Part shown: positions 5,002 to 41,384 of the stretch, piece after piece
Position numbering within the stretch: the first letter of the stretch is position 1
How the letters are laid out: every line of letters starts with the position of its first letter
Source of the DNA: Thermothelomyces thermophilus ATCC 42464
Lineage: Eukaryota; Ascomycota; Sordariomycetes; Sordariales; Chaetomiaceae
DNA length: 64,000 nucleotides
Direction: 5' to 3'
NCBI RefSeq assembly: GCF_000226095.1
Contig: NC_016472.1
Location: 1 to 64,000, forward strand
Program-made: the position numbers and the translations under genes
Notes under the pieces: generated by a model
The model's input: the letters and a program-made list of their open reading frames with translations, nothing else
Told to the model about the DNA's origin: nothing
Database searches by the model: none

Positions 5002-5329
5002 ACATGTCTTGGGGAAAGTCTGGGGATTTGTTCGCTTTCTAGGGGCTTTCTGCTTGGACACCTTTTGGCAGACAGCCTGGCCGCAATGCGTTAGCGACCG
5101 TTTTTCACATCGGAAGCCTGGATTGACCCTGCCAGTGCCGACAAGCCCACAGTGGCCAGAGGCATAGGTAAATGTGCGTGGGTGTGATGGAGATCGTGTT
5201 GAACGCGCTAATAGACGAGGCACACCCAGGCCATGATGGAATGACCCCGAATCATAAGGTATCCAATGCGGGAGGGCGGTTACATATTTGATCTAGGAGG
5301 GAAGTATAGGCGCCAAGTAAATATCCTCA

Positions 5330-7111: not shown

Positions 7112-7376
7112 CTATAGCCAATCAGCGGTTTTGTTCGATTCGCTCATCCTTGGGCTTCCCTGCCCGGGAACTAGCGTCTCTCGAGAACGTGATAGACAGA
7201 TGGCACTTTGGTTAGTTCTTCGTACCGTATTGGGTAGCAAACGCTCTAGATTCATCATGACCTGCTCGATAAATGTGCCAAAACCGTGAATGAAATCGTC
7301 ATCCTCGTCTGCCACAGACACTTTGGCGAATTCGGGCTTCTGCCAAACCTTAAGGGTCTAGATAATGTTCTCTAAT
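7112..7376 (-). pseudogene. 3' fragment of a host gene split by the copia insertion
   Basis: Minus-strand coding sequence that begins at the target-duplication base next to the 5' LTR. It reads KVWQKPEFAKVSVADEDDDF, then IHGFGTFIEQVMMNLERLLP, clearly protein-like. It is in frame with the fragment ending at 40605 once one CTAAT copy is discounted: the joint codons read GEL|ENII. An in-frame TAG at 7358-7360 is a CAG with one C-to-T change in a CpA context, the RIP preference, so it may be mutation leaking out of the repeat. A GTACGA donor at 7225 could end the exon; otherwise the frame runs to a stop at 7112. Function unknown. Confidence 0.65.
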
Positions 7377-7591
7377 TGTCAGAAGCTGTAGAGCTTCTAA
7401 GAGTATTAGCCACATACGTGCCACAGCGTATAAGGCGTCGTTGCCAACGCATTAGCCAGTTCCTTTGTCTATAAATATTAGTCGTTTTGTCTCCTTTATA
7501 GATAGTTTAATAAGGCACTATCTCCTTCGTATAGCCACCCACTACGGGCACTGCTTTCAACACTCTAGGAAGCTCATCACTACGTTCGGCA
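7377..7591 (+). repeat. 5' LTR of the copia element
   Basis: 215-bp repeat that pairs with 40390-40604. Both contain a near-palindromic AGAAGCTGTAGAGCTTCT at the start, a TTTGTCTATAAATATTAG TATA-like box and a common end at ...TTCGGCA. Differences between the two copies are mostly C/T and G/A transitions, as RIP would give. The following bases GTTATAAGCC are in the primer-binding-site position. Confidence 0.9.
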
Positions 7592-8707
7592 GTTATAAGC
7601 CTAGCGCCTTGACTACTCCTCTGCCGACGCATCTTCAATACTAATGGTAGCTTCTTTCTTCGGTTACGAACTCTCTTACCCTGCTTCTATACGCTTTCGA
7701 CGACACGTCCATTATATCCGAGATCCTAGTCAAGACTTCTACACGCCTTATAGGGCCTAGTTCCTAGAACTCGTGGTATATTAAACTGTAGTCGTAGGCT
7801 AAATTTGCTGGTATATAGGGATTTGTCGACCCTGATGGCGACCGTGAGCTAGATCTAGAAGTTCCGTAGCGCCTAACCTATAAGTAAGCTAGAGATAACC
7901 TTATCCTAGCTTCCTAGGAGCAGCTCTAAGAAGGATTGTTGCCCTCGATGTCTATAGATTTGATGCCTTCTGATGTAGCTATCGTAGCCAAATTCGTGTA
8001 ACTATAAGACTCCTTTTACAAAGATATTATATATATTATAGACGTTAGTAAGTAGATAGGATAGTTATAACGCTAGCTAGTATATACCGTGGATCCTAAA
8101 CTCTATAAAGCTATAAAAGTATATAGAAAGAAGGATATTAACCCTATTAAAGGGATTATCTAGGCGCTTTGCTCTATATTTACGCTATCTATTATAACGC
8201 TCTATATAATAGTTATAGTATAATATATAACTAGTCTTAATATAGCTAAGTGTTTAGGAGTCAATCTATAGCGCTAGATTTGTAACTTTAATGTTACCTT
8301 CTAATAAGCTATTTAATACGATATCTTAGAAGTATAGGGTATACGAGGACTTTATACCTTTCTTAATATTATTACTATACGTATCCTACTAACCTAGGTA
8401 GCGAATAAAAGAATAGAAATCGAGCTTGCTAATAGTATAGAATAGCTATTTCCGGAGCTTAGTACCCTTATTATAATAGCTAAAATCCCAATTAATAATA
8501 ACATATAACCTAAAGTCTCTTAGAAGTATAGAATCTTCTTAATAACTTATATACCAATACTTTCTATAGCTTAAAAGAGTAGTAAGGGGAGAGGTAGAGA
8601 CTTATATACTTAGTAATATAATATAAGATATCCCTATAAGTGTCTAAGATATCTATAGGATCTAGTAGACTATTACATATTTAAATAAGCTATCTATAGT
8701 AACGAGT
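7592..8707 (+). mobile_element. 5' body remnant of the copia element (gag side)
   Basis: About 1.1 kb of TA-rich sequence between the 5' LTR and the insertion point of element D. By position it is the leader and gag/protease side of the copia element. It is too decayed for me to recognise domains by eye. Confidence 0.6.
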
Positions 8708-9553
8708 TATAATGTGCTAGCCTTATAGCAACTATAGATAAGCGTATAATATTCTATTTAACTACCTTAGAGAGGAAAAAGAGAAAGAATATAAGAGTTA
8801 TATAGAGGGGCGCCTTTTAAGTGTATACGTTGTAACCTAGGTAGGGCCCGGTTAGGCTCTAGGTCGGGCCCTAACTAGGCCTTGGCCGCGTATCCACTAG
8901 ACGAGTTACGAATGAGCAATGAACGCTCCGCGGACCCGTAGGGCATAGGTAAGTAGGGCAGGGTAGGTCTGTTCCGTGCCTAGGTAAAGCCCGGGCATTA
9001 TCTAGCCTAGGTATAGCCTGGGCCTATAATATACCCCCCCTCTTTTTTTTTCACGGTCGCCAGGCCGACCTGCCCCGCATCGCGCCCTATATATCGGTCC
9101 TATAAGCAGGTTCCGTGCCTTCCTTTCTTTATCGCCATAATAATATGACCTATGTATACAATGGCGTATTATACGCGAACAGGTAGCTGTTCAAGTTCGG
9201 ATGAAACCCGTACCTCCTTCCCTTTGTTATTAGAATAACGCGATCCGCGCGTATAGTAGTAAGTCATGTATGTAATAAGTAGTCTACCTGAGCCTGGCGT
9301 GCTCCCCTATTGCCTTCCTCTTATACCTATAAATACCCCCTTTTTTTCCCTCCTCCTCTTAATTTTTTCTTACCTATAACTAACTCTCCTCTTCTATACC
9401 CTCTAACCGCCCCTGCCTCCTATAACTATACTTGCTACCTATACCCCTATTATACCCTTAAGTTTTTTTTTTTTTAGTATCTATCTAGTATATTGATAGC
9501 TATTAGTTTACTTAGTAATAGTAGTAATAGTTACTACTCTAGTAATGATAAAA

Positions 9554-9971
9554 TGTCACGGAAATATACATGTAGATGCCACCTAAGCCACCGGCACAGA
9601 CAGGCCAATCAAGCCAAAGGAACGAAAGGACCAATCACAACATAGGGAAGCACAGTGATCACTACGCTCACCAGTGATCAGGGTGATCATCACTATGCGA
9701 TCACTCACAATCACCGTGATCACAAGTGATCACTGGGATTATATATACATATAGATAGTCACTCATTAAAGTAGACTCTAGAAGTTTACCAGTGGTAACA
9801 ATTATAATCATAGTACTTATACTAAGCATTGCCGACTACTATGAGAGACAACTCTAATGTTATTATAAACCCTTTAGCTTCACCGAATCCCTTAGACGAC
9901 CTATGCCCTTGTCCGCTTTACCTACCTCCGTCTAGACCCTTTCAGAAGAAGTCTGAGTTAGGTTCGTTATA
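9554..9971 (+). repeat. 5' LTR of element A
   Basis: 418 bp, starting TGTCACGGAAATAT. The U3 part holds a cluster of GTGATCAC-type palindromes (about 9650-9735) followed by a TATATATA box near 9742. The end, ...TTCGTTATA, matches the other family LTRs allowing C-to-T decay. Partner: 24122-24539. Confidence 0.9.
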
Positions 9972-10993
9972 CGTTATTACCACTCCCTTTGTTCTATCAT
10001 GGTTTAGAACGGAGGTGACTTCGACCTCGACACCGATATAGCTACTGACGTCACGGCCGAACAACTGCTCGCCTAGCTTGGTCAACTCTAGTAGCGGATC
10101 TAGGAGTTAGACTAGAGAGATAAGGCTGCTTAAGCTTGAATCAAGGAACTTGAGAACGGCGAAAAGTATTTATAGAAATTGATTAACGAGGCTTACGCCA
10201 AAATTGAGACGCTTAAGGCTATTAAAGTAAGCTGTATCAAGATCGAACTACCTAGTAAATATAGAGGAACTAAGGAGGATCTTATAGGATTCCTAATAAA
10301 CCTCTAATCCTACTTTCGGCTTAATAATGATAAGTTTCCGGATGATAAAGCTAAAGTCCTTTATATAGCTATAAGATTAGAGGGCAAGGCACTTAGATAG
10401 TTCGAGCCTTTGTAGAATAACTATCTTACTAAGGAAGACGAAGACGACTGAGACGTGTTTATATAGGCAGTCTTCCGATCTTACGACCGTTTCGAAGAAG
10501 AGCTTTAGAAGGTTTTTGGCAATAAAGACGAGAAAATCTATATATAAGAAAGACTTGCCAATCTCCGACAGACTAAGTTAGTAGCCTCCTATACTATATA
10601 GTTTAGATAGGATATGTTTAAGTCTTAGCTTAACGACGAGGTATTGATATAATTGTTTTATAACGGCCTAAAGGAAAAGGTTAAAGACGAGCTATATAAG
10701 TATAATCAACCTAAGACTTTAGATAAATATATCGTATAGGCCATCAGAATCGATAATCGACTCTATATACGAGAGTAGTAGAAACGAGGTCAAACGAATG
10801 GAACCATGGTCAAGGCTAACGATAAGAAAAAGCGAACATACGCTAATACCTCGTATGGGATGTACCCTAGAGCTATAGATATAGACATAGCATAGAAGCA
10901 GGACCGGAAGAAGACGACTAAAGATAAGTCCAATGTTACCTACTATAACTATAGAAAGAAAGGGCACTATAAGCAAGAATGTTAAAGCCCGAA

Positions 10994-11411
10994 TGTGACG
11001 AACCCAACTCAGACTTCTTCTAAAAGGGTCCAGACGAAGGTAGATTGAGCGGAACAAGCGTACAGGTCGTCTAAGGGATTCGGTGAAGCCAAAGGGTTCA
11101 CAATAACACTAGAGTTACCTCTTATAGTAATTAGCAATGCTCGGTATAAGTACTGTGATTGTGATTGTTACCACTGGTGAACTCCCAGAGTCCTCTATAA
11201 CAAGTGACTATCTATATATATATATAATCCTAGTGATCACTCCTGATCACGGTGATCGTGAGTGATCGTATGGTGGTGATCACCCTGATCGCTGGTGAGC
11301 GTAGTGATCACTATACTTCCCATGTTGTAATTAGTCCTTCCGTTCCTTCGGCTTAATTGGCCCGTTTATGCCGGTGGCCTAGGCGGCATCTGTATACATA
11401 TTTCTGTGATA
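10994..11411 (-). repeat. 3' LTR of element B
   Basis: 418 bp in reverse orientation (reads TGTGACGAACCC at the left). It carries the same palindrome cluster (about 11,232-11,315) as the LTRs of A. A pyrimidine-rich stretch just right of it is the complement of the polypurine tract. Confidence 0.9.
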
Positions 11412-11520
11412 CGATGCCCTCCCTCCGAGGCTTTCGACCCGAAAGCCCTCTTTTTAGGCCGTTTCAAATAGCGCTAACATCCCTCGCGTTCCTTGTACGT
11501 GTTTTTCTCCTTAGTCCTCG

Positions 11521-12080
11521 TTGCCCTTCGTGCTGTCAATTATGCCGTCTAACGTGTGTAGATCCCTAGCGTCTATTCGTCGTGAGCGTTTAGCTCAGTT
11601 TATTTCTGATCACGGGTTCGTAGTGATGGCGTGTTCCTATTACATAGAGTATAACCGAGTGTATAAGATGATTGAAAAATCTCGTCGCTATAAGGCTTAC
11701 ATGCGTCAGGGTCGTGCTTACAATGGTTCTAGCGTTCTAGTTTCTTCTTGTAAGTTCCTGTTTTCTTGCGAGGGCACGTCTCTAATCGTAACGCAGTAGA
11801 TCATATTATACGCGAGCAACGTCGTTTGAAGGCTGAAGAGAAAGAGGCCGAAGCCTTGCTATAGGAATATCAATATAAAGCTTCTAAGGCGTTGGCCTGT
11901 CTGACTCGGGTTTGTAAATAACGAGAGTTCCTGGTAGAGAAGGGGGCGGACATGGTTATATAGGGTTTGTCGAATCTAGACGAATTGGAGGCGGTAGAAT
12001 AGTAGGAATCGGGGGCCGTCGTATAACTTAACGGTGGTATCGACGTTATTAACTAGGGCGCTGTTTTCGGTTCTATCCTA
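11521..12080 (+). other. Antisense open region in the 3' part of element B
   Basis: Plus-strand open frames lie opposite to the element's gag-pol direction, between the 3' LTR and the integrase end (for example 11521-11799). The translated composition is protein-like: basic, with a clustered array suggesting a former small metal-binding motif, then Glu-rich helical sequence. The same region at the same place in element C (about 31,550-32,080) is similar. It is therefore a conserved extra gene of the family, now decayed. Confidence 0.6.
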
Positions 12081-15000
12081 GGTTTGCCTTTAGCCGATCT
12101 AGGTTCTGCCGATAGAACTGTTCTAGTTTCTTAGGGCAGTTTAAATTCTTGACTAGTTCCTATGAGTTGTCTTTTAGTTTGAAATCAAGCTATTTAACTA
12201 AGTACTATAGTTCCCTATTAATAATATATAAATCTAGAATTTCTTTGATGTCCTATTCTTCCTCTTTGTCCTCTGCTTCGATATGTGTAGCAACCTTGGT
12301 GTTCTTTAGTGCTAGTTCAAGAAGTGAAATATAAAAAATATCTGTCTATAGGCATATAGATGACGGTAACGACAGTTAGTAGTTAGATGTCGAAATTCGT
12401 TCTTTGATAACGAAGGGTCTGACCTTCTTAAAGTCTAGCTTTATGCTTAGTCGTTTGGTTTGTAAGTTTCGTACGATCAGGTAGACTTTGTCTCCCCTCT
12501 CTAGGCAAGGTCCCTCGAGCCTGTGTTTGTCGTAGTAGTTCTTCATTCTGGTTTTGACAAACTCGAGTTCCTTCTTAAGCTTCTCGTATAGTGCGTATAT
12601 CTGTTCTGCTTTGACTGCTGCTCTTGGCACTGTGACCTCTGGTCCTTGCCTAAGGTCTGCTTTATATCTATAGTTCGCGAAGAATGGTGTGACTTTGGTC
12701 GTTTCTGTCGGCGTCGTGTTATAGGCGAGTTATACTGTTGGTAATAGTATGACCTAGTTGTCTTGCTGGTAATTGACGTAAGAGCAGAGGTATTGCTTAA
12801 TAACTTGGTTTAGTTACTCCGTTTGTCTATCGGTCTGCGGGTGATATGCTGTTAATAGCTTGCTATTGACGCCTAATTGTTGCATTAACGCTTGCTAGAA
12901 CTTCGATGTGAACTTGATATCTCTGTCGGTAATCTATTCTTGCGGCTAAGTATGTACTGATGTAACTTGCCGATAGATCACGTCTACTAGCTATTTAGCT
13001 ATCTAGGACTCCTTGTAGGGAAAGAAGTATACCTATTTAGTTAGGCGATCTACTATAGTAAGAATATTATTATAGATTACTCTTGTAGCCGTGTCCTTAG
13101 ATTCTGGCAGCTTCGTAATGAAGTCTATTGTAACTAAACTCTATGGTTTGTCAGCTGTTGGCAGTGGCTAAAGTAGCCTATACGGCTTGTGTCGTGCCGT
13201 TTTGCTTCGATTGCAGATGTCGTAGCTCCGTACGACTTCCTTAACTCGTGCCGTTAACTGTAGAAAGTCGTAGTGTCTCTTGACTTGTGTGATAGTCTTC
13301 GTAACTCCCTTATATCCTCCGAGTTTTGACTCGTAGAGTTCTCGAATCATTTGTAGCTGTTGGTCTTTGTCGTAGATATATGCTTTGCCTTGGTACTAGA
13401 GTTTCCTATCTTTCTCTTCTACTCCGTTAGGTATTACTAGTCCGGGTGCTACTTGATACTATGCCTCGTTAATCCTTTCCTCTTGAAAGATTGCGTAGCA
13501 TTCTAGGAACGAGTCAAGTAGATCATCTTCTACGGGTATCTGCATTTCATAATATAGTATTCTATCTATTCGTTCCTTGAACAACAGTGGTATTGTTCCC
13601 GTTTGTCCTTTTATATGATCCGTTCGTCGACTTAAAATGTCTGCTTATACGTTTTCTTTACCCTTCTTATAGCAGATCTTGAAGTTAAATTCTATAAGGA
13701 ATTCTGCCTATTGTATTTGTCGTCCGTTAAGTTCCTTTGTCGTCGTGAAGTATTACAAATTCTTATAATCTATATATACTTATATTGGTTTAATCGTACT
13801 ACTAAGGTATAGTCGCTATTCCTTGAAAGCTTTGATAATCGTAAGTAGTTCCTTGTTGTAAATCGGATAATTGAGACGTAGTCTATCGAGCTTCTTTAAA
13901 AAGAAGGCTATAGGATGTAGCTTCCCTTGTTCGTCTCGTTATCCTAATTGTCCTCCGATGGCGTAGTCTAAAGCGTCCGTTTCTACCTCAAATAGCTTCT
14001 TAGGGTCTGGTAGTACTAGTACTAGATCTTTAGTAATGGCGTTATAGATCTACGTAAATGCTTGCTTGTGTTGCTCTTCCTATTGGAATTTAGCATTCTT
14101 CTTAGTAAGTTCGTATAAAGGTCGTACGATCGCTCTAAAGTTCCTAATGAACATTCGGTAGAAGTTTGTAAATCTGATGAAGCTTCGTGCTTCCGTAACT
14201 AACGTTAGTTGTGGCTAATTCTTGATAGCTTTAACCTTTGAAAGTTCTATCCGGATTTCTCCTAGGGATATTTCGTATCCTAAAAAGACTGTCTTCCTGA
14301 CATGGAATTCGCTCTTTTCCTTGTTAACTAATAGCTTGTACGTGTATAGCGCGTCTAGCACTGCTATTACATGCTTCCGGTGTTTGTCTATCATCTTGGA
14401 GAAGATGAGTATATCGTCGAGATAATATACTATAAATTTGTCGAGAAAGGGTCAGATAGCTTGATCAATCAGGGCTTAGAATGTTACTAGCACGTTCGTA
14501 AGTCCGAATGGCATGACAAGGTACTCGTAGTAGCCATAAGGTATCCTAAAGGCCGTTTTCCACTCGTCGCCTTCTTTAATCTATATATAGTTATAGGCCG
14601 ATGGCAAGTCAAGATGTGTGAAATATTAGGCTCCTGCTAACTGATCTTGGAGCTGTGAGATTAGCGGTAATAGGTATCGGTTTTTCACGGTCTGTTCGTT
14701 AAGTTACCGATAGTCGACGTATAACCGTAGCTTTCCGTCTTTCTTAGGCACAAATAGGATTAGGTAGCCTGCTAGCGATGTCGACAGGCAGATATATTCT
14801 CTTTGAAGGTTCTCCTCTAAATATCGCTTAAGTTCTTTGTTCTATGTCTAGCTTATATAGTAGATCTTAAAGAACTTTAGTTATGCTCCTTCCTTAAGCT
14901 TGATCTTGTAATCCTATAGGCTGTGTTCTAGTAATCCTTCTAGATGTTTCGGTTCGAATGCTAGGTGTCCTTCGTATTCCTTCGGTACTTCCCTAGTCTT

Positions 15001-18000
15001 GTCTCGTCTCTCGGTTTTCTAATAGTATATAAACTTGGTTCTGTCTATAGCGATGCTAGCAATTTCTCCTGTCTTAACCTATTACTCTAATTATAGTGCT
15101 CCGTATTCGTCAACAGAGAGAACAGCTATCGGCGATTTAGCTCGTTCCTCCTATTGTAATATCGATGTCGTTATGCTGCCTCTTCTAGAGTCTATAGTGG
15201 TCTGCCTGCCACTGTCTGTCTCTTGTAGTAGATCCGTAGGACATGCCTTTCTCTGAGCATTGTCTGCTCGTGATCCTTGTATACTCCCTATCTCGTTAGT
15301 TAAATACGACTCCATTTAGGGTTATAGGTAGTTACTATTCTTCTAGCTAATGTCCAGGTTATAATCTTTATACTATAGTAACTCTAATATTATATCTTTG
15401 TCGTTACCTATATCTATAATGCTAAATACGACTACTATAGTCTTCCCTACTATAGTAATGTCGATCGGTTCGGTCTCTCTATATACCTATTGTATCAGAA
15501 ATGGCCCTTTGACTATGCCATGCTTTTGCTTTATTCTCTAGGGTATCTATAGCTGATTTACAAGCGTCGGTGAGATTAGGTTTATCTCTGCTCTACTATC
15601 TACTAGTGCGAGTATTTCGTGCTGTTTCTATTATGCTATTATCTATAGCCGCTTGTCTTGCCGCCATCGTCTAAAGATTGTAGCGATTTCCTATATTTCT
15701 GCCAGGAGGTCTTGGTATAGTGGTCTCTTACGCTAGTTCCTCTTATACTACGCTACCACTTGCCGCTATATAGGCATTAATGGTTTCCGGGCCCCTTGAA
15801 GGGCCCTAACCTGTTTTCTAGGTTAGTGCTGACCTCTCTAGTTGCTCGGCTAATAGCAGCTTTATTAATCATGCTCATTTCCGTAAGCTATTGGGTGCTT
15901 GCGGCTTCCTACTATTAGGTCTATTTTACTTTCCGTCATACGTGCTATAGCTTTATCTGAAGCTCCCGAATTCGCAATTTCTTTTCGTCCGTATAATAGA
16001 GGCAATCGTTGCTCTAGCACGAGTCTTATATATCTTGTCCGGTTCCGTAGTGCCTAGGCCAGGCTCGTTTTAGAACTATTATGATGCTTTCTAGATCGTG
16101 GGCTTCGATCTTCCAGAGCAATTCGGCCGCTCTGTTTCCTGTATCGTAGACCTATTCTATAGGGTACAAGCCTCTGTCCCTATTTTCCTGTCGGGTCGGC
16201 TAGTGATTATTTTCGAATTTGTCGTGGAAGTGATATTAGTATTCGTATGCTATACACTGGAACTAGGGCACTTGCGTATATGCCTTGTGTCGAGGGTGTA
16301 GTCACGTGGCATTGCCTAGGAGGTATTAGAATTCTTTCCCAAATCCTTCCCACTATATATAGGCCGTAGGTACTCTAATGCTAAGATAAGAGTGTTTCTT
16401 CTAGTAGCTTTCCTACATACGCTCGTCTTTCCTACGGTTTGCTTGTATAAACTAGTATTCTAGGTTCTATACATCATTACTAAGTTACTGGCTGTCAAGA
16501 TACTTAGTATAGCTATCGGGCCTATTATATGTCATAGGCTGTTCTCCTTTAATGGTTTCTACGATACGTTGGAGTTCCCTTATTTCGTCCCTTATCTTAA
16601 CGCTCTGCTAGGCAAGTCAAGTCAAGCGCCTATCCTATTCACGCAGTTCCATATTGAGTTAGAAAACTTCGTTATAGTACTATTCGATTCGTTCCTAGAG
16701 GAATAGAGCATTAGGTCTAGGTCTTTCAATTCCTTAGGTATCGGTTGTCTACGATCTATCTCGCCTCTACGTGACTATGAGACCCTACTGCCTCAAGGCT
16801 AGGAGAATCGAAACTGGCAGTGTATATTCTCTTGCCATGTCCTATTTGGCAAGACCTGTCTCTAGATCTATAGTGACTAGTTCGGAGTACGGTGCTTGTT
16901 CGTCTTTACCGTTGCCGTTGTGTCTGAGACTGTCTGTGTCATTGCCCTTATCTTTGTAGCTTATGGCCGCTACTTCGATGACGTCCTTAGTAGTTTTGTT
17001 AATAGTCGTAATTTCCTTTCTAAGGGTTAGTTTCCATTCTTTCTTTAGGCTCTGGCATTCTCGCTTATAGTGTCCTTTCTTTCTATAGTTATAGTAGGTA
17101 ATATTAGACTTGTCTTTAGCCGTCTTCTTCTAGTCTTACTTCTACATTATATCTATATCTATGGCTCTAAGGTATATCCTATATAAGGTACTGACGTATA
17201 CTTGCTTTTTCTTGTTATTGGCCTTAACTATAGTTCTATTCATTTGACCTCGTTTCTACTACTCTTATATATAGAGTCGATCATCGATCCTAATAGCCTG
17301 TGTAATATATTTATCTAGAGTCTTAGGCCGATTATACTTATATAGCTTGTCCTTAACCTTTTCCTTTAGGCCATTATAGAACAATTACATTAACGCCTTA
17401 TTATTAAGCTAAGACTTGAGTATGTCCTGTCTAAACTATATAGCGTAAGAGGCTACTAACTTAGTCTATTAGAGATTAGCAAGTCTTTCTTACATATAAA
17501 TCTTCTCGTCTTTGTCGCCAAAAACTTTCCGAAGCTCTTCTTCGAAACGGTCGTAAGATCAGAAGACTACCTATATAAATACGTCTCGTTCGTCTTCGTC
17601 TTCCTCAGTGAGATAGTCATTCTATATAGGCTCGAACTATCTAAGTGCCTTGCCCTCTAGTCTTGTAGCTATATAGAGGACTTTGGCTTTATCATCCGGA
17701 AACTTGTCATCATTAAGCCGGAAGTAGGATCAGAGGTTTATCAGGAATTCTACAAGATCTTCCTTAGTTCCTCCGTATTTACTAGGTAGTTCGATCTTGA
17801 TACGCTTCACTTTGGCGCCCTCGAGTGCCTTGATTTTGGCGTAGGCCTCGTTAACTAACTTCTACAAGTACTTTTCGCGGTTCTCGAGTTCCTTAATTCG
17901 AGCTTAAGCAGCCTTGTCTCTCTAGTCTAACTCCTAGATCTGCTGCTAGAATTGACCAAGCTAAGCGAGCAGCTGTTCGGCCGTAACGTTAGTAGCCATG

Positions 18001-18065
18001 TCGATATCAAGGTCGAAGTTACCTCCGTTCTGAACTATGATAGAACAAAGGGAGTAGTAATAATA

Positions 18066-24539: not shown

Positions 24540-24544
24540 TAAAA

Positions 24545-28951: not shown

Positions 28952-30694
28952 TTCCTAGATACTAGTAACTAGGAAGGTATCGGAAGTCTTCTTCTTCTAT
29001 ACCCTCTAAACTATGCCTATAAAGATTATACCTATAATTTAAGAGATTCCTATTTATCTTAACTATAAAGAGATCTTATAGATAAATAATCCTAGTTATA
29101 TCCCGATTTTAAGAATGCTTATATATATATCTAGTTTAACCTTCTAGTATCCTATCTATAGGAGACCTAATATAACGTCATATATGAGTCCTAGGACTAT
29201 ATAAAACGTAGCCTAACTCTCCTAGCTATTGATATCTATCGTAACATAGGCTATCTAAGTGATCTTCCGGTCCTATTATAGCCTAGTTATAGTCCTAAAG
29301 GTATATATAATAGGCAAACTAATCTACTTAATTCTAAGCTTCTAGTATATTCTTTCACTAATAACGCTATAGCTAGAACATCTACTATTTATTTAAGCGT
29401 TTACAAAGCTAGTAGAGTTAAAGAAGATTAGAATAAGAAAAGAAGGTCTATCTATTCTCTTATTAATTTCTATAAACTTATCTTCTAGGTAATTATAATC
29501 TTCTAGCCCCCTTACAAGACTTTACTCAGGGGCTACTCTTTTCCCTACTTACCGTCTCCTTCATTAGATAGGTCATCGTCTTCCTTCTAATCCTTAGCCT
29601 CTAAGGTATTAATGTCGGTTCTTAGCTAGTTCTACTATATTAGCCTTAAAGTAGGGGCAAAGTGACACTTAGTAATAAAGTAACCCTTCTACCTATACTA
29701 GATATACACTCCGGCTGCCTATTAGACTATATATACTTCCAGACTAACCTATTTCGCTTATAGGGCGTTACCCCTACATTTTCCTACCCTATCCTTATTA
29801 GGTCCCTTCCTCTATAGGTTAATACATGACAAGTTAATTCCAATTATCGGTATATCTCCTTCTATATCCTTCTCTCTCTATAGTTCAGGTGCTACCTACC
29901 GCCCCCATATCTACTAATACTTATTATTAAGCTAAAGAGCCTTAAGATCTATAGCAATCTTATAGTATTTCTCGACCGCTATCACGTAATTATTCTAGGG
30001 AATTCCTTGTCTAACCGCCATATATTTAAGTTTCGAAGAGAAGCATTATTATAATTTAATCAGGTATAGCTCGTCACTCCAAAGGAGACCGCCTGCCTTC
30101 GATAGCTTAGCCTTAAACCGAACAATAAAGGTAGTAAACAGTTCGTTATCTCTCTATCAAAGGAATTCTAGTTCTAACAAGGCTACCGTCTTCTTATAAA
30201 GGTTAGAGAAGATACTCTCAAAATATTAGAGGAACTCGGTCAGGTTATACCTAACTTTTAGGCCTATAGATTTATAGTAAGCTATAACTCGAGTCTATAC
30301 CTAGCGCGTAAGGTTTCCTTAGATAAAGACCTATTAGTCGTAATTAGAGCTAATAAAATCTCTATTAGCTACAAGGACGTATTCTATCATACTCTTCCAT
30401 ACTATAAAGAGTTCCTTTTTGCCGTCAAAAGGTTATCTAGTTAGGAGACGCTTCTGCTATAGCCGCTAAGCTTTAAGGGGCACCCTAGCCGACTTAGGGG
30501 TCAGGATAGGTTGGGTTTAGGATGCTTAGAGAGTATCGATCGTCGCGTTCTGCTATTCTACTGCTGCTTAAAGGGAGCGGACGAGCTCCTATAATTCCGC
30601 TAAGCCCGAGGGCCTATATGCCATTAGATCTGTTATAACTACGTTATCGATAACTCCCTTAGGGAGTTATTACCGGTAAAGAAGGTAGTCGAAA

Positions 30695-30981
30695 TGTAAT
30701 ATACTAGCCTTATAGTAACTGTAGATAAGCGTATAATATTCTATTTGACTACCTTAGAAAGGAAAAGGAAAAAGAATATAAGAGTTATATAGAGGGGCGC
30801 CTTTTAAGTGTATGCGTTATAACCTAGGTAGGGCCTGGTTAGGCTCTAGGTCAGGCCCTAACCAGGCCTTAGCCGCGTATCTACCGGACGAGTTACGAAC
30901 AAGTAACGAACGCTCCGCGGACCTATAGGGCGTAGGTAAGTAGGGCAGGGTAGGTCTGTTCTGTGCCCGGGTAAAGCCCCG
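30695..30981 (-). repeat. Truncated LTR of element D
   Basis: 287 bp matching 8708 to about 9,000 in the same order and orientation (CTAGCCTTATAG, GAGGGGCGCCTTTTAAGTG, GCTCCGCGGACC, GGGCAGGGTAGGTCTG). It stops exactly where element C's LTR begins. The rest of the LTR is not found on the far side of C. Confidence 0.8.
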
Positions 30982-31433
30982 TGTGACAAACCTAGCTTAG
31001 ACTTCTTCTGAAAGGGTTCAGACGAAGGTAGATTAAGTAGGACAAATAGGCAGGTCGTCTAAGGGATTTGGTAAAGCCAAAGGGTTTACAACAATACTAG
31101 AGTTATCTCTTACAATAATTAGCAATGCTTGGTATAAGTACTATAATTATAGGTTGCTATTACTAGTAAACTCCTAGAGTCTACTATAACGAGTAACTAT
31201 TTACATATATATATACTTCTGTCGATCGCTTATAGTCCCCTTCTATCCTGTCCTTAGATCGCCTTTAGTAGCTAGCTATCCTCTGCTATCTTTCCCTTTT
31301 AGCAATTGTTTGCCTGTAGTAGCCCGTGCTCTCTAGCGATCCTATGTTAACCTCGCTTCGTGCCCTTCTTGATTAGTGGCTTATTTAGCCTGCTATACCT
31401 TACTAGGTTGCGGTATATAGTTAGCTTATGATA
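30982..31433 (-). repeat. Left LTR of element C
   Basis: 452 bp starting TGTGACAAACCTAG. The first about 220 bp match the other family LTRs; the remainder (U3) is a different sequence without the GATC palindrome cluster. Confidence 0.8.
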
Positions 31434-34400
31434 CGATGCCCCCTCTTTAGGGCTTTCGACCCGAAAGCTTCTTATGACTTGTTTCAAATACCACTAACAC
31501 CCCCTTTTCCCTAGTAGGTAACGTCCTTCTTCTGTTAACTTCCTTTTGTTATAGCTGATCGTATTCCTAGGAATCGTCGTGATCTTAAACGCAAACGACA
31601 CGCTATTACTATCAAGATTAAGCAAGAGGGTTACAAGGTCACCATACCTTATAAGCGTTATTAGAATACAAAGCTACGAAAGCGTTATATAATAATAGAG
31701 GGTTTAAACAAGTGTTAAAATTATATTCGTATAGGTAAGAAGTATAGTAGTCTAAACATTATAGATACCTATAGGTTCCTCGTTATTTTCCTTCGTAGTC
31801 TTAGATTACTAACTATCTTAGTCCTTTCAAATTTATTAGAGTAGGAGAAGGTTTCGAGGGAGATTGCTAAGACCGAGGCATTACTTACTTAGACGCTAAG
31901 CCGTTTAAGTCGATTACGTCGTTTATAGCAATCCCTATACGATCGTAGTACCGAAGTTTTTCGTCGTAGCGTAGCTTGTCTAGAGGAGGAGGAAGAACTA
32001 GATACTCCTCCGCCGATATCGGAAATATAGACCCTTACGGGTTAGGCTTAGGCGTTAGGTGCTTTTAACGTGCTTGATTAAAGTCGATCGGGTTAGATCC
32101 TGGTCCTAATTCTAGCGGGTTCCCCTCTTTTTCTATCAGGGAATAGGCTTTAGAGCCGGTTCTTATAGCTAGTTAGGATTCCACCGGTAGAACTGCTCTA
32201 GTTTCTCAGGGCAATTTAGGTTCTTAACAGGTTTCTATAAGTTGTCTTCTAGTCTAAAATCAAGCCATTTGACTAGGTACTATAGTTCTCTATTAATAAT
32301 GCGTAAATCTAGAATTTCTTTAATGTCCTATTCTTCCTCTTCGTCCTCTGCTTCGATGTATATAGTAACCTTAGCGTTTTTTGGTACTATTTCAAGAAGT
32401 AAAATATGAAAAACATCTATCTGTAATTATATAGATGATAGTAATGATAGTTAGTAGTTAGATATCGAAATTTGTTCTTTAATAATAAAGGGTCTGACCT
32501 TCTTAAAGTCTAGCTTTGTACTTAGTCATTTAGTTTGTAAGTTTCGTACAATTGTAAGTTTTATACGATTAGGTAGACTTTGTCTCCCCTCTTTAGGCAA
32601 GGTCCCTTGAGCCTGTGTTTGTCATAGTAATTTTTCATTCTAGTCCTGATAAACTCGAGTTCCTTTTTAAGTTTCTCGTATAGTATATACATTTGTTCTA
32701 CTTTGACTACTGCTCTTGGCACTGTAACCTCTAGTCCTTGCCTAAGGTCTGCTTTATATCCATAGTTCGCAAAGAACGGTATAACTTTGGTCGTTTCCAT
32801 TGGCATTATATTATAAGCGAGTTATACTATTAGCAATAGTATAACCTAGTTATCTTGCTAGTAATTGACATAAGAACAGAGATACTACTCGATAACTTAG
32901 TTTAGTCGCTCCATTTATCTATCAGTCTACGGGTAATATACCATTAATAGCTTGCTATTAACACCTAATCGTTACATTAACGCTTGCTAGAACTTTAATA
33001 CAAACTTGGTATCTCTATTAGTAATCCATTCTTATAACTAAGCATATACTAATATAACTTGCTAATAGATTATATCTACTAGTTATTTAGCTATCTAGGA
33101 TTCTTTATAGGGGAAAAAGTATACTTATTTAGTTAGGCAATCTACTATAGTAAGGATATTATCATAGATCACTCCTATAGCTATATCCTTAGATTCTAGT
33201 AGCTTTGTAATAAAGTCTATTATGACTAAACTCTATAGTTTGTTAGCTATTAGCAGTAGCTAAAGTAGCCTATATAGCCTATATCGTGCCGTTTTGCTTC
33301 GATTGTAGATATCGTAGTTCCATACGACTTCCTTAACTCGTGTCATTAACTATAGAAAGTCGTAGTGTTTCTTGACTTATGCGACAGTCTTCGTGACTCC
33401 TTTGTATCCTCCGAGTTTCGACTTGTAGAGTTCTCGAATTATCCGTAGCTACTGATCTTTGTTATAGATATACGCTTTACCTCGGTACTAGAGTTTCCTA
33501 TCTCTTTCTTCTACTCCGTTAGGTACTAGTGGTCTAGGTATTACTTAATACTATATCTTATTAATCCTTTCTTCTCGAAAGATTATATAATATTCTAGGA
33601 ACGAGTTAAGTAGATTATCTTCTATAGGTATCTATATTTCATAATATAGCGTTCTATCTATTCGTTCCCTGAATAATGGTAGTATTATTTCCGTTTGTCC
33701 TTCCGTGTGATCCGTTCGTCGGCTTAAGATGTCTGCTCGTACGTTCTCTTTGCCCTTCTTATAGCGGATCTCAAAGTTAAATTCTACGAGGAATTCTACC
33801 TATTATATTTGTTATCTATTAAGCTCCTTCGTCGTTATAAAGTATTATAAATTCTTATAATCTATATATACTTATACTAGTTTAATCGTGCTACTAAGGT
33901 ATAGTCGCCATTCCTTAAAAGCTTCGACAATCACAAGTAGTTCCTTATCGTAGATTAGATAATTAAGATGTAGTCTATTAAGCTTCTTTAAAAAGAAGGC
34001 TATAGGATATAGCTTTCCTTATCTGTCTTGTTGTCCTAATTGTCCTCCGATAGCATAGTCTAAAGCGTCCGTTTCTACCTCGAATGGCTTCTTAGGGTTT
34101 GGTAGTACTAGTACTAGATCTTTAGTAATGGCGTCGCGGATTTACGTAAATGCTTACTTGTATTACTCTTCCTATTAGAATTTAGTATTCTTCTTAGTAA
34201 GTTCGTATAAAGGTTGTACGATCGCTCTAAAGTTCCTAATGAACATTTAGTAGAAGTTTATAAATCCGATAAAACTTTATACTCCTATAACTAACGTCGG
34301 TTATAGCTAATTCTTAATAGCTTTAACCTTTGAAGATTCTATCTAGATTTGTCCTAGGGATATTTTATATCCTAAAAAGACTATCTTCCTAATATAGAAT

Positions 34401-37400
34401 TTGCTCTTTTCCTTGTTAACTAATAGCTTGTACGTGTATAGTATGTCTAGTACTACTTTTATATACTTCTGGTGTTTGTCTATCGTCTTAGAGAAGATAA
34501 GTATGTCGTTAAGATAATATATCGCAAATTTGTTAAGAAAGGGTCGGATAGCTCGATTAATCAGGGCTTAGAACGTTACTAGCACGTTTGTAAGTCCGAA
34601 TGGCATGACGAGGTACTTATAGTGGCCATAGGGTGTCCTAAAGGCCGTTTTCCACTTGTTGCCTTCTTTGATCTGTATATAGTTGTAGGCCAATGGCAAG
34701 TCAAGACGCGTAAAATATTAGGCTCCTGCTAACTAATCTCGGAGCTATGAGATTAGTGGTAACGGGTATCGATTTTTCACGGTCTGTTCGTTAAGTTGCC
34801 GATAGTCAACGTATAACCGTAGCTTTCCGTCTTTCTTAGGCACAAATAGGATTGGGTAGCCTGCTGGCGATATCGACAGGCGGATATGTCCTCTTCGAAG
34901 GTTCTCCTCTAAATATCGCTTAAGTTCTTTGTTCTGTATCTAGCTCGTATAATAAATCTTAAAGAACTTTAGTCATGCTCCTTCCTTAAGCTTGATCTCA
35001 TGATCCTATAGGCTGTATTCTAGTAATCCTTCTAGATATTTCGGTTCGAATGCTAGGTATCCTTTATATTCCTTTGGTACTTCCCTAGTCTTGTCTCGTC
35101 TCTTAGTTTTCTAATAGTATATAAACTTAGTTCCGTCTATAGCGATACTAGCGATTTCTCCTATCTTAACCTACTACTCTAATTATAGTGCTCCGCATTT
35201 GTTAATAGAGAGAATAGCTATTAGCGATTTAGCTCGTTCTTCCTATTGTAATATCGATGTCATTATACCGCCTCTTCTAGAGTCTGTAGTAGTCTACCTG
35301 CTACTGTCCGTCTCTTACGGTAGATCTATAGGACATGCCTTTCTCTAAGCATCGTCCGCTCGCGATCCTTATACGCTCCCTATCTCGCTAGTCGAATACG
35401 ACTCCGTTTAGGGTCGTAGGTAGCTACTATTCTTCTAGCTAATGTCCAGGTTGTAATCTTCATGCCATAGTAACCCTAATATTATGTCTTTGTCGTTGCC
35501 TATGTCTACGATGTTAAATACGACTACTATAGTCTTCCCTGCTATAGTGATGTCGATCGGTTCGGTCTCTCTACGTACCTATTACGTCAGAAATGGCCCT
35601 TTGACTATGCTATGCTTCCACTGCATTCTCTAGGGTATCCGTAGCTAATTTATAAGCGTTGGCGAGATTAGGTTTATCTCTGCTCCACTGTCTACTAGTA
35701 CGAGCATTTCGTGCTATTTCCATTGTACTGTTATCTATAGCCGCTTGTCTTGCCGCCGTCGTCTAAAGATTGTGGCGATTTCCTATGTTTCTGCCAGGAG
35801 GTCTCGGTATAGTGGTCTCTTGCGCTAGTTCCTCCTATACTACGCTACCACTTGCCGCTACACGGGCGTTAATAGTTTCCAGGCCCCTCGAAGGGCCCTG
35901 ACCTGTTTCCTAGGTCAGTGCTAACCTCTCCGGTTGTTTGGCTAATAGCGGCTTCGTCAATCGTGCTCATTTCTATAAGCTATTAGGTACTTATAGCTTC
36001 CTACTATTAGGTCCGTTCTGCTTTCTATCGTACGTGCCATAGCTTCATCTAAAGCTCCCGAATTCGTAATTTCTTTTCGTCCACGTAATAAAGGTAATCG
36101 TTGCTCTAGCACGAGTCCTATATGTCTCGTCCGGTTCCGTAGTGCCTAGGCCAGGCTCGTTTTAGAACTATTATAATGCTTTCTAGATCGCGGGCTTCGA
36201 TCTTCTAAAGCAATTCGGCCGCTCTGTTTCCTACATCATAGACCTATTCTATAGGGTATAAGCCTCTGTCCCTGTTTTCCTATCGGGTCGGCTAGTGATT
36301 GTTTTCGAATTTGTCGCGGAAGTGACATCGGTATTTGTATGCCATACACTGGAACCAAGGCACTTGCACATGTGCCTCGTGTCAAGGGTATAGTCACGTG
36401 GCGTCGCCTAGGAGGTATTAGAATTCTTTCCCAAATCCTTCCTACTATATATAGGCCGTAGGTACTCTAATGCTAAGATAAGAGTGTTTCTTCTAGTAGC
36501 TTTCCTACATACGCTCGTCTTTCCTACGGTTCACTTATATAAACTAGTATTCTAGGTTCCGTACGTCGTTACTAAGTTACTGGCCGTCAAGATGCTTAGT
36601 ATAGCTATTAGGCCTATCATATATTATAGGCTGTTCTCCTTTAATAGTTTCCATAATATATCGGAGTTCCCTTATTTCGTCCCTTATCTTAACGCTCTAC
36701 TAGGCAAGTCGAGTCAAGTGCCTATCCTATTCGCGTAGTTCTATATTAAGTCAGAAAACTTCGTTACAGTACCATTCGATTCGTTCCTAGAGGAATAAAG
36801 CATTAGGTCTAGGTCTTTCGATTCCTTAGGTATCGGTTATCTACAATCCATCCCGCCTCTACATAACTATAAGACCCTATTGCCTCAAGGCTAGGAGAAT
36901 CGAAACTAGCGGTGTATATTCTCCTGCCATATCCCATTTAGCAAGACCTATCTCTAGATCTATAGTGACCAGTTCGGAGTACGGTGCTTGTTCGTCTTTA
37001 CCATTGCCGTCGTATCCGAGACTGTCCGTGTCACTGCCCTTATCTTTGTAGCTCGTGGCCGCTACTTCGATAACGTCCTTAGTGGTTTCGTCAATAATCG
37101 TAATTTCCTTTCTAGGGGTTAGTTTCTATTCTTTCTTCAGGCTCTAGCATTCTCGCTTATAGTGCCCTTTCTTTCTATAATTATAGTAGGTAACATTAGA
37201 CTTATCTTTAGCTATCTTCTTCTAGTCCTGCTTTTATATTATATCTATATCTATAGCTCTAGGGTACGTTCTATACGAGGTACTAACATACGCTCGCTTT
37301 TTCTTGTCATTAGCCTTAACCGTAGTTCCGTTCATTCGACCTCGTTTCTACTACTCTCGTGTGTAGAGTCGATCATCGATCCTAATAGCCTATACGATAT

Positions 37401-38157
37401 ATTTATCTAGAGTCTTAGGCCGATCATACTTATATAGCTCGTCCTTGACCTTTTCCTTCAGGCCATTATAGAACAATTGTATCAACGCCTTATCATTAAG
37501 CTAAGACTTAAGTATGTCCTATCTAAACTATATAGCATAGGAGGCTACTAACTTGGTCTATCGGAGATTAGCAAGTCTTTCTTACGTATAAATCTTCTTA
37601 TCTTTATCGCCAAAAACTTTCCAAAGCTCTTCTTCGAAACAGTCGTAAGATTAGAAAACTACCTACGTGAACGCGTCTCGTTCGTCTTCGTCTTCCTCAG
37701 TGAGGTAGTCATTCTATATAGGCTTAAACCATCTAAATGCCTTGCCCTCTAGTCTTATAGCTACGTAGAGGACTTTGGCTTTATCGTCTAGAAACTTGTC
37801 GTCATTGAGCCGGAAGTAGGATTAGAGGTTTGTCAGGAATCCTACAAGATCCTCCTTAGTTCCTCTATATTTACTAGGTAGTTCGATCTTAATACGCTTC
37901 GCTTTAGCGCCCTCGAGTGCCTCGATTTTAGCATAGGCCTCGTTAACCAACTTCTACAAGTACTTTTCGCGGTTCTCGAGTTCCTTGATTCGAGCTTGAG
38001 CAGCCTTGTCTCTCTAGTCTAACTCCTAGATCCGCTGCTAGAGTTGACTAAGCTAAGCGAGCAGCTGTTCGGCCGTGACGTTAGTAGCCATGTCGATGTC
38101 AAGGTCGAAGTTACCTCCGTTCTGAACTATAATAGAACAAAGGGAGTGGTAACAACA

Positions 38158-38604
38158 TATGACGAACCTAACTTAGACTTCTTCTAAAAAGGTCTAGACG
38201 AAGGTAGATTAAGCGGAACAAGCGTGTAGGTCGTCTGAGGGATTCGGTGAAGCCAAAGGGTTTATAACAACACTAGAGTTACCTCTTATAGTAATTAGCA
38301 ATGCTCGGTATAAGTATTGTGATTGTGATTGTTACTACTGGTAAACTCCTAGAGTCTACTATAACGAGTGACTGGCTAGCTATATATACATAATTGTCTG
38401 TCCCTCTTTAGTAGTTATTACTAATACCATTTCTCCTTTCACTCTGTGACTCCGTGTTGTCGACGGTGACATGTTATTATCACTAGTGAAGACCTTGGTC
38501 TTGGCGGTGATAATCTCCTGATTGGTCCGTCAAGTAATTGGCTGTCGGAATGTCCCGCGTCCTAGCTACAGCCTGCCAGGCCGTCTATGTGCTTATCCGT
38601 GACA
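38158..38604 (-). repeat. Right LTR of element C
   Basis: 447 bp starting TATGACGAACCTAA. The R-U5 side matches the family. The U3 side (about 38,385-38,604) differs both from that of the left LTR and from A/B, and ends CCGTGACA. Confidence 0.8.
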
Positions 38605-39300
38605 TTGTTAGATCGATCTTATACTACGTAGTTATACTATATCTAGACGTTATATACGTCTATTTAGTACTCTCTCGATACTTAACTAACCTAGAACTAG
38701 ATTACTTATTAAAGGTACGGCGAGTAGTAAGATATCCATTTAGGAGCTCTTGCCTGTTAATCTAATATAGAGGTAAGCAAGCGCTAAAAAGTCTAACGCT
38801 TATAATCGCTAGAGACGCTTTGTATATAGACAATCTAAATATATAGTATTCGTTATAAGGATATATCTTCTTCTTATTTAGAGGTCCTATTATATAGAAA
38901 GTGTCGCGCTAGGATATTATTATAACGTCAAGTATTAAAGTAGAACTTCTAATGCTCTCCCTTATAGTAAGAGGGGCTATAGCACTTAAAAGGCTATTTA
39001 CGGATATTGATCTTAAACTTAGGGAACCCTAGAACATCTACTATAACAATTAGCAAACTATTTGACTAATAATAGCTAAGAACGAACATATTAATACTTA
39101 TCTATAGTATATAGATATCTATAATATATAGTTATACCAGGAAGTAGTAAAAGGAACGTTTAAAGCTATATATTTACTAACTAGTTAGATATTAGCAGAT
39201 AGGCTTATTAAATAACTTAGCTAATAAGCCTTCGAGTGCTGGAGGGCTCTTCTTAATCTTTAAGATGTTAGTTATAGGCTTATATAACTAGGGGGTAGAA
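38605..39300 (+). mobile_element. Reverse transcriptase end and RNase H region of the copia element
   Basis: Plus-strand sequence that reads as the C-terminal part of a Ty1/copia polyprotein, including the RNase H core and the terminal segment near 39,150-39,280. It is decayed. It establishes the family and plus orientation of the outer element. Confidence 0.75.
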
Positions 39301-39339
39301 GATAAGTTAAATTTATCAAATAAAATACCGCCTAATACT

Positions 39340-40154
39340 CCCTATTTACTATTATTAGCCGTCGCTAGGATTAATAGCCTTACCCTTACCTTTATCCTAG
39401 CCAGGCGATGACGTAGTACCTAATATATCATCAGACGTGCTAACGTAAGCATTATAAGCCTCCTTGATCTTGCCTAACTAATAGAAGATATCATATACTA
39501 AGTAGGCAATCTTCGTAAAATATACGAGCTTAGCCTTGTCAAGCTCGTACTCCTCTATATTATCTACGCTAGCGCGTTTCAGGTCACTCCGAAGGACTAT
39601 ACGTAACTTCTTAAGATCCTATATATAACTATTAACGATTTACCTATATATTAGGAGTAGAGGTTTAGGATCTAGGGACTTATAAAAGCCTTAGCTCTAT
39701 CTAATAAAGCCTTCGTCAAATCCTTTACTAACCTAATATAAGAAGTAAGACTACCATTATAGTTAGTATAAGTATCGTAAGAGCTATTAGATATATAGGT
39801 AATTAGCGTATATTTCCTTATACTTATGGGAACTATAGGTATAATGGTAATAGCAAGAGCTAGCGCTAGAATAATTATAACATTTGCCAAAAGAACGTCT
39901 TACTAGAGCCGACTATATATATATTCTATAGGGCACCTTGTAAAGCTCGCTAGCTTTAATATCGCTATCTTTAGTCAGCTCGAACGATCCTAACGCGACT
40001 AGAACACTTATAGTTTAGAAGCTAGTTTAGAAGCTTTAGCACGCTTATACTTTCGAAGGGTTACGGGAGCAGGAGTCGACCTACTAGTAGTAGCAGTATT
40101 CGTAACAGGTATACCTGACAAGTTATCCGTTGATTCGAGTATAGGAGGCGTCAT
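39340..40154 (-). other. Antisense open region between copia pol and the 3' LTR
   Basis: About 0.8 kb between the end of pol and the polypurine tract has protein-like sequence on the minus strand, opposite to the element. A possible start at 40152-40154 is followed by a Thr/Ser/Pro-rich then basic segment, and further left come helical charged segments. The copia element thus also seems to have carried an extra antisense gene, now decayed. Function unknown. Confidence 0.45.
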
Positions 40155-40389
40155 CCTATTATTATTACAATTGAAATTGGTAATACTATCGCTACTATAA
40201 TTACAATAGCTATATTTAATCTATAGCTTTAAAGGAATTACTCTACTATACTTGACTCTTTTAGACTTCCGAATACGGAAGGCAGGCCCCTAAAGGAGCT
40301 ATTGAAGTAAGAGCGACAAAGGATATAATACCAAGAATAGTATTACTACAAAGCATAGTTAAACGACTATTGCCTTTAACTAGGGGGTG

Positions 40390-40604
40390 TGTCAGAAGCT
40401 ATAGAGCTTCTAAGAGTATTAGCTATATACGTGCCACAGTGTATAAGGCGTCGTTGCCAACGCATTGGCCAGTTCCTTTGTCTATAAATATTAGTCGTTT
40501 TGTCTCCTTTGTAGATAGTTTAACAAGGCACTGTCTCCTTCGTATAGCCACCTACTACGGGCACTGCTTTCAACGCTCCAGGAAGCTCATCACTGCGTTC
40601 GGTA
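40390..40604 (+). repeat. 3' LTR of the copia element
   Basis: 215 bp, partner of 7377-7591. It is preceded by AGGGGGTG and followed by the CTAAT target duplication. Confidence 0.9.
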
Positions 40605-41384
40605 CTAATTCTCCCCCCACGCCTTCCCAGTACAGCTTTTCGAGCTCAAAAAATAAAGCATCTTTTCCCGGTCTAATGAGTGCCCAAGGGCTATCGGTTG
40701 CTGCTGCTTCGATGACTTTCTTGTCCAAGAAAATATATGTCAGTGTTCTTAGGTACTTTTGGAATACACGGTAGATTGGATAGTGAAGAGAGCAATGGTA
40801 CCTAGGTACCTACCTGACGCATTCGGCGAGGCAATGATGGCAGATCCACCACCTGAGTCCCTTGCTCGACAACATTTCCTTACACTCGGGCAGGTGAGCA
40901 GATGCTTTGCTAACTGGGCAAGTTTTGTTCTGTCTATTGCCTCCGACTTTTCCCTGCGCTGGGCCGGCGTCATGGACGCACACATGCCGCATAAGCGTCT
41001 TGGTTTGCGCGCCCCCTGCCATCTCGACGTTGGTCTGCCTATCCCTAAGCGGGTATGGAAATCTGTGTTTCGCCAGCGCCGGGGGATGGCCTTGTGGGCT
41101 CCCCCGGAAGCAATAGATTGTGTAGAAGCACTTGGAGCAGCAAGGTCGGCAGCCGGTGAGGTGTTGGGATGCGAACGATGGTGCCACTGCCAACTTCGTT
41201 CCACAGTCCTACCGGACTGCTTAGCAACCAAGGCCGCACTGAGGGTTTTGCAGATCTGACCTACCGCGCATGTCTGGATCCCACATATGTCACAACTGGT
41301 TTTTGTGCTTTCCTAGCAGGTAGTCTTGCGGAGGTTCTCGAGTTGCTCCGGCACGATTGAACGCTCGCATCCAAAAAGGTCCAT
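40605..41384 (-). pseudogene. 5' part of a split host gene: Cys-rich putative zinc-binding protein
   Basis: Minus strand, likely three exons: 41384-41265, 41208-40814 and 40747-40605. The introns are 56 bp (GTAGGT...TAG, with a GCTAAG branch-like site) and 66 bp (GTAGGT...AAG). Phases agree at both joints. The start reads MDLFGCERSIVPEQLENLRK. The first joint makes CDICGIQTCADCG, a paired CxxC motif; later come GCRPCCSKC and LRWWICHHCLAEC, so a zinc-binding fold is likely. The last exon (WALIRPGKDALFFELEKLYW) ends at the copia target site and continues in frame at 7376. An in-frame TAG at 41313-41315 is again CAG with C-to-T. Alternatively that TAG is part of a short intron's acceptor. Family not recognised. 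Confidence 0.62.

Follow-up and report, generated by a model that had tools for sequence, protein, structure and literature searches.

A Copia element and nested LTR elements split a poorly conserved subtelomeric reading frame in Thermothelomyces thermophilus

Single-copy sequences split by nested transposons are known in fungi competent for repeat-induced point mutation (RIP). Among described elements, the LTR retrotransposon crapaud of Podospora anserina, a related fungus, shows RIP and has LTRs whose variants diverge in their 5' half, and the disparate ends found in 7 of 150 full copies are there ascribed to gene conversion or ectopic recombination (PMC10787394). The locus considered here lies within a window of 64,000 nucleotides that forms the left-hand end of the Thermothelomyces thermophilus contig C1. 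Two halves of a minus-strand reading frame lie 33 kb apart today, near one chromosome end, with the telomere repeats ending 7.3 kb away. No mention of the locus was found among the titles and abstract openings that literature searches listed.

The split site and its uninterrupted relative

A perfect 5-bp target-site duplication, CTAAT, surrounds a Copia element at this locus (Table 1). The minus-strand frame ending DALFFELEKLYWEGVGGEL runs from 40662 up to the site and, on the other flank, a minus-strand frame starts from 7375 with LENII as its first residues, the phase being unbroken across the junction when CTAAT is counted once. A preliminary description of this DNA had proposed that both frames meet the Copia target site as parts of one continuous stretch, and had asked for an intact relative that crosses both flanks. 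Such a relative is found in P0001, a predicted protein of 171 amino acids from the sister species Thermothelomyces heterothallicus CBS 202.75, which reads straight through the junction. It spans the insertion site without a gap and holds both flanks in order, with only the codon of the target-site duplication common to both. Residues 95–113 agree with the 5' flank as far as the target-site duplication (19/19 residues) and residues 113–150 with the 3' flank (35/38), while residues 2–71 match the 5' piece at 89%. As far as this predicted protein shows, T. heterothallicus has no interruption at the site.

At the level of sequence, these data confirm that the split of one continuous stretch by the Copia element is real, and it is placed beyond chance because of P0001, not because of the frames. 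It is very unlikely that the flanks come from two different genes and agree only by chance in their phase and in the 5-mer on either side of the nest, given that both fall in one uninterrupted stretch of P0001 and that the target-site duplication is perfect; the two in-frame stops described below would suit such an arrangement, and nothing further was found in its favour.

Table 1. Positions of the split frame and of the elements of the nest in the window.
Feature	Position	Strand	Observation
3' piece of split frame	7112..7376	-	1 in-frame stop; P0001 match
Target-site duplication CTAAT, left copy	7372..7376		read directly
Copia LTR, left	7377..7591	+	215 bp; 13 differences from right LTR
Copia internal part, left	7592..8707	+	matched by other Copia copies; RIP-like composition
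LTR element D, in Copia, carries B and A	8708..30981		LTR parts 257/285 identical
Gypsy-type LTR element B, in D, broken by A	9554..24539	+	target-site duplication TAAAA on both sides
Gypsy-type LTR element A, in B	10994..18483	-	target-site duplication CCGAA on both sides
Gypsy-type element C	30982..38604	-	LTRs of subtypes X (left) and Y (right)
Copia internal part, right	38605..40389	+	comparison with sister copies
Copia LTR, right	40390..40604	+	215 bp; genome matches
Target-site duplication CTAAT, right copy	40605..40609		read directly
5' piece of split frame	40605..41384	-	1 in-frame stop, in exon 1; P0001 matches
Proposed exons of 5' piece	41384–41265, 41208–40814, 40747–40605	-	phase, GT-AG
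Proposed introns of 5' piece	41264–41209 (56 nt), 40813–40748 (66 nt)	-	GT-AG, phase-compatible

Coding signal of the interrupted frame

What was hit by the insertion is a separate matter. It is quite possible, if a little short of probable, that the site was interrupted as described but had at no time held a functional gene, with P0001 a spurious model of conserved intergenic subtelomeric DNA; such a reading is compatible with the insertion history and bears only on the nature of the target. P0001 is the single relative found among 5.8 billion proteins, searched twice with different length limits, and a Pfam scan of the four pieces of the split frame gave no family at E values up to 1, both of which speak for a spurious model. 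The P0001 model also uses different frames and splice sites. It begins after the CDICG/DCG motif, reads the RWWICHHC stretch in a different frame and, upstream of the junction, switches frame over a further stretch of about 22 residues. The paired CxxC motifs of the preliminary description are not kept in this predicted model, which starts past the first and has the second in another frame. The two phase-correct introns of that description can both be drawn, on the basis of phase and GT-AG alone, but neither is supported by P0001.

Codon scores point the same way, the four pieces giving −0.02 to −0.17 bits per codon compared with 0.23 and 0.32, the two highest values among five held-out frames. 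Against a spurious model, however, the claimed frame has the top codon score among the stop-free frames in exons 2 and 3, and scores best in exon 1 even with the stop there. Of the frames of the 3' piece it contains the fewest stops (one) but ranks second by score. Third positions have the highest GC in exons 1 and 2 and in the 3' piece, though not in exon 3. The residues kept around the junction also count against a spurious model. The stop in exon 1 is a TAG upstream of the CDICG motif, and the second, also TAG, lies in the 3' piece five codons past the junction, opposite an ordinary residue of the P0001 model; the preliminary description did not mention the first and gave no more than a hint of the second. 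Frame length by itself says little: of 1000 dinucleotide shuffles of 40605–41384, 196 contain an open run as long as the second exon (132 codons) or longer, although only 13 attain the 187 codons of the longest run that this segment has across its six frames.

Searched against its own genome, each of the 5' and 3' pieces matched itself only, and the WW-C-C-EC motif, written as a DNA pattern to look for paralogues, matched only the window. With P0001 as query, the same genome yielded the four pieces in the window and a single match on contig C7 (25%, E 0.73), which was not taken for a paralogue, the DNA there suggesting no relative by eye. A family with a comparable RWW-C-C motif was considered for the split frame; it was not confirmed and is not claimed. 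A cysteine-rich, probably zinc-binding protein of about 300 amino acids, as had been suggested, is not established, with no Pfam family, a relative modelled at 171 residues, a coding signal that is weak and an in-frame stop to each side of the insertion. It would seem very unlikely that the insertion hit a young subtelomeric gene restricted to the genus, and that transcription of its 5' piece still runs on into the Copia LTR to give a truncated Cys-rich protein; were this true, the nest would have remodelled the gene rather than simply destroying it.

The Copia element and the nest within it

An LTR pair with a 5-bp target-site duplication is common to Copia and gypsy elements and is not class-specific. 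The class of the outer element, Copia as first described, is shown by RVT_2 in its sister copies, the window copy being without its middle. RVT_2 is present in the missing-middle region of 6/6 same-family copies examined and in the window has none of its 88 genome matches, about 3.6 kb that would hold it being absent between 8707 and 38605. The right LTR has at least 40 matches in its own genome (40 scored of 243 first-look candidates), and perfect 5-bp target-site duplications are seen at all seven Copia copies read, in the window and at six other pairs. Three fragments taken from two of the sister copies, scanned for an integrase ahead of the reverse transcriptase, matched no retroelement family in Pfam. 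A possible tRNA-derived primer site was also considered: the primer-site-like motif has eight genome matches, one of them inside a Copia copy examined, and the five that were scanned, at bacterial settings, gave no tRNA gene.

Three LTR elements, D, then B, then A, are nested inside one another within the Copia element. In A, on the minus strand, fragments of RVT_1 (1.3e-10) and Integrase_H2C2 (1.9e-10) lie above the Pfam cut-offs; SH3_Tf2-1 is below cut-off in A (9.5e-5) and just below it in B (9.7e-7), and RVT_1 in B is also below (0.051). A and B are classed as Ty3/gypsy (Tf2-like), B mainly because of its 85% identity to A. The target-site duplications of both are perfect. D appears gypsy-like by eye; one of two fragments scanned with Pfam gave no match and the other a chance match below cut-off to an unrelated family (E 0.034). 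Its left LTR starts at 8708 and its right LTR ends early, at about 30979–30981, and a copy with longer LTRs lies inside a sister Copia copy at about C7:3463.1–3470.3 kb.

The LTRs of one insertion are identical at the start. Those of C have little in common outside one half (79.5% identity over 404 aligned columns, with 34 transversions and 94 gap columns); between the two LTRs of A, B, D and Copia there are 0, 2, 0 and 0 transversions. In the copies typed elsewhere, both LTRs of a pair are of one subtype, X in two pairs and Y in one, and the 5-mers beside C are unlike, CCCCG and TTGTT. C is probably a recombinant, because its LTR subtypes are discordant, the flanking 5-mers differ and the Copia middle is gone. 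Both ends of C are exact LTR termini, which would suit an ordinary single insertion, the Copia middle having then been lost through an unrelated deletion; this reading is nevertheless unlikely in view of the transversions, the unlike 5-mers and the like pairing of X and Y in other copies. Recombination with deletion most likely removed the roughly 3.6 kb of Copia middle together with the end of an LTR.

A history of the following kind is very probable as a whole. Copia integrated into the single-copy minus-strand frame, duplicating CTAAT, followed by D into Copia, B into D and A into B, an order that the nesting shows, with target-site duplications for B and A. Two more gypsy-type copies with unlike LTR subtypes would have entered, one in the right LTR of D and one in Copia, and may then have recombined to give the hybrid C, with deletion of the intervening DNA including the Copia middle. 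That later insertions separated the halves had been recognised, and further LTR elements do lie inside; the probable recombination and deletion had been overlooked.

RIP, LTR divergence and comparison with described systems

RIP-like composition is found in the repeats and is absent from the single-copy flanks. The RIP composite index is −0.41 in the 3' piece and −0.59 in the 5' piece, with a maximum of 0.12 in 100-bp windows of the flanks up to 41404, and ranges from 0.66 to 1.3 in segments of the nest (1.2 in the left Copia internal part). The Copia LTRs have composite values of 0.91 and 0.97, although their substrate index, at 0.86, exceeds the limit usual for RIP. Leakage of RIP into the flanks was considered, and the negative composite indices of both pieces are against it. 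LTR divergence is 6.0% for Copia, 7.4% for A, 9.1% for B and 9.8% for D (partial), C being left out. Copia is thus the least diverged of the four pairs compared, though it is outermost and therefore the oldest. Dating by LTR divergence was rejected because transitions predominate, as RIP would give: they make up nearly all differences in the A, B and D pairs and all 13 in the 215 positions of the Copia pair. Where RIP acts, LTR divergence is a poor clock.

As in other splits known from RIP-competent fungi, a single-copy stretch has been cut by LTR elements and RIP-like composition is confined to the repeats; here, by comparison, the split frame has one known relative and lies close to the telomere repeats. 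A nest splitting a poorly conserved subtelomeric frame is expected where repeat-induced point mutation operates, and the locus is a new instance of an ordinary type of event. It nonetheless allows an empty site and its target duplication to be read from a single locus along with the order of nesting and a probable recombination, and it carries a warning for annotation, that the halves should neither be joined nor either of them called a gene. The outer element resembles fungal Copia retrotransposons (PMC5445492) in the RVT_2 of its sister copies, its 215-bp LTRs and its 5-bp target-site duplications; the window copy differs in having no middle and is placed as far as Copia, whose fungal clades include GalEa and FunCo1. 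As described for crapaud, the gypsy elements differ in one LTR half and C has discordant LTRs, whereas the recombination proposed here would also have taken a piece of the surrounding Copia element.

Interruption of a minus-strand frame

The outer Copia LTRs, which differ at 13 of 215 positions by transitions only, lie between the two pieces of a split frame. A minus-strand reading of the 5' flank gives three proposed exons separated by two proposed phase-compatible introns, and the third exon stays in frame up to the CTAAT duplication; the 3' flank has the same phase and carries the reading on past the junction. Each flank holds one in-frame TAG, and that in the 3' piece, which sits in a flank without RIP-like composition, is compatible with constraint having been lost after insertion, although it does not prove it.

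When a 132-residue piece of the 5' flank was searched against 5.8 billion proteins, a single one was recovered at E up to 1: P0001, an 'uncharacterized' predicted protein of 171 residues from T. heterothallicus CBS 202.75. In a second search, restricted to 0.55-1.75 times 297 residues (about 163-520 residues), P0001 was again the sole protein recovered at E up to 10 (14 candidates scored); as both searches require common 5-residue words, distant relatives may have escaped them. Residues 95-113 of P0001 are identical to the final 19 residues of the 5' flank, residue 113 corresponding to the codon within the duplicated CTAAT, and the 3' flank matches residues 113-150 at 35 of 38 positions, with the stop scored as a mismatch. 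Farther upstream, the 5' flank shows an 89% match to residues 2-71. Since P0001 matches both flanks around the junction, the sister species would have one continuous stretch, seen as this predicted protein, at the place that holds 33 kb of repeats in the window. Precise excision is not known for LTR elements, so the filled site is the derived state. That the frame was split is near certain. The preliminary description, which claimed one stretch split by a Copia insertion and looked to an intact relative covering both flanks, is thus borne out in its main claim by P0001, predicted to run across the junction uninterrupted.

Architecture and history of the nest

Elements of the nest were delimited by self-comparison and exact ends.

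Features of the nest and its surroundings
Feature	Position	Strand	TSD or adjoining sequence	Remark
F-box gene	5333-6430	-		open frame, ~5 kb from telomere repeats
3' flank	7112-7376	-
Outer Copia LTRs	7377-7591 and 40390-40604		CTAAT immediately outside each
Element D	8708 to about 30981			surrounds B; right LTR shortened
Element B	9554-24539		TAAAA	surrounds A
Element A	10994-18483		CCGAA
Element C	30982-38604
5' flank	40605-41384	-

The genome of the strain (38,744,216 bases, 7 contigs) holds at least 40 matches to the outer LTR (40 scored out of 243 first-look candidates), and six LTR pairs were fetched from those readable in that match list. All six copies have 5-bp TSDs and match PF07727 (RVT_2), read through stops, in the portion absent from the window copy. 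Where this portion was taken whole, in three of the fetched copies, its length is 3616, 3612 and 3611 bases; in two more it was taken in part. Of 88 RVT_2 matches across the genome, none falls in the window. By its sister copies, the outer element is Copia.

Several Copia LTR pairs in the genome are spaced at 21-22 kb (C6:13426/34997, C3:125860/147903, C3:4689898/4711777, C5:2696399/2717810 and also C6:2964777/2986013), and the first four, which were fetched, all hold two gypsy-type elements within Copia. Such double nesting of similar size may merit attention.

Element A contains RVT_1 and Integrase_H2C2 fragments above Pfam cut-offs and, like B, Tf2-like SH3 fragments below cut-off; A is therefore gypsy-type, as are B and C from their similarity to it. 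D looks gypsy-like by eye only, and two of its fragments gave no retroelement match in Pfam.

The LTRs of C are discordant. They align over 404 columns with 79.5% identity, 34 transversions and 94 gap columns, against 0 transversions in the pairs of A, D and Copia and 2 in B. The left LTR belongs to one subtype, X, which forms two like pairs in the fetched stretches (C3:127761/142560 and C3:131038/138196), whereas its right counterpart belongs to another, Y, which forms one (C3:4700478/4707635); other gypsy copies there have different LTRs or LTRs that match just partly. The flanking 5-mers also disagree, CCCCG lying in D's right LTR and TTGTT in Copia. C is probably a recombinant: most simply, an X element in D's LTR would have recombined with a Y element in Copia, deleting the intervening DNA. 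In crapaud of Podospora, LTR variation sits in the 5' half, and the disparate ends of 7 of 150 full copies are explained in that study (PMC10787394) by gene conversion or ectopic recombination. Later insertions had been held to part the halves; nested insertions are indeed present, but recombination and deletion were most likely involved on top of them.

All ten nest segments have a composite RIP index between 0.66 and 1.3. In the two flanks it is negative, at -0.41 and -0.59. According to a survey (PMC7882544), T. thermophila is one of the genomes in which RIP covers >10% of the assembly. The process behind the locus is an ordinary one, followed here in close detail.

Nature of the split frame

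The description of a probably zinc-binding protein of about 300 residues is not supported: Pfam gave no family for four pieces of the frame, and both cysteine motifs are absent from the P0001 model. The model starts downstream of the CDICG/DCG motif, and it lacks RWWICHHC because, between residue 71 and about residue 93, its frame on the strand differs from the one first proposed. Five window frames (1700 codons; two of the frames overlap in different phases) served to train a rough codon score, which was applied to segments whose ends fall within a few to about twenty bases of the proposed exon limits. The claimed frame scored -0.08, -0.02 and -0.11 bits per codon in exons 1 to 3 and -0.17 in the 3' piece; held-out frames (n=5) gave 0.23, 0.32, -0.08, 0.00 and -0.19, of which the last three may include non-genes. 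Among frames free of stops, the claimed one scores best in exons 2 and 3; in the 3' piece it has the fewest stops, yet another frame there, with six stops, scores higher at -0.14.

The window opens with 20.7 copies of CCCTAA (1-124) and is therefore a chromosome end. Close to the telomere lies a 317-residue open frame (1189-2142, plus strand) without a match in a Pfam scan, and at 4868-5002 (minus strand), 2.4 kb outside the nest towards the telomere, an inverted fragment of the outer Copia LTR, 74% identical. The F-box gene shows conservation striking for a subtelomere: among the matches listed, 119 other proteins are 67-91% identical to it, and these come from Sordariomycetes and some other fungi.

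Against the single relative recovered for the split frame stand 392 proteins (E up to 0.001, own entry counted) matching the neighbouring F-box gene. By Pfam, relatives and codon scores the split frame is thus fast-evolving, very restricted or no gene at all.
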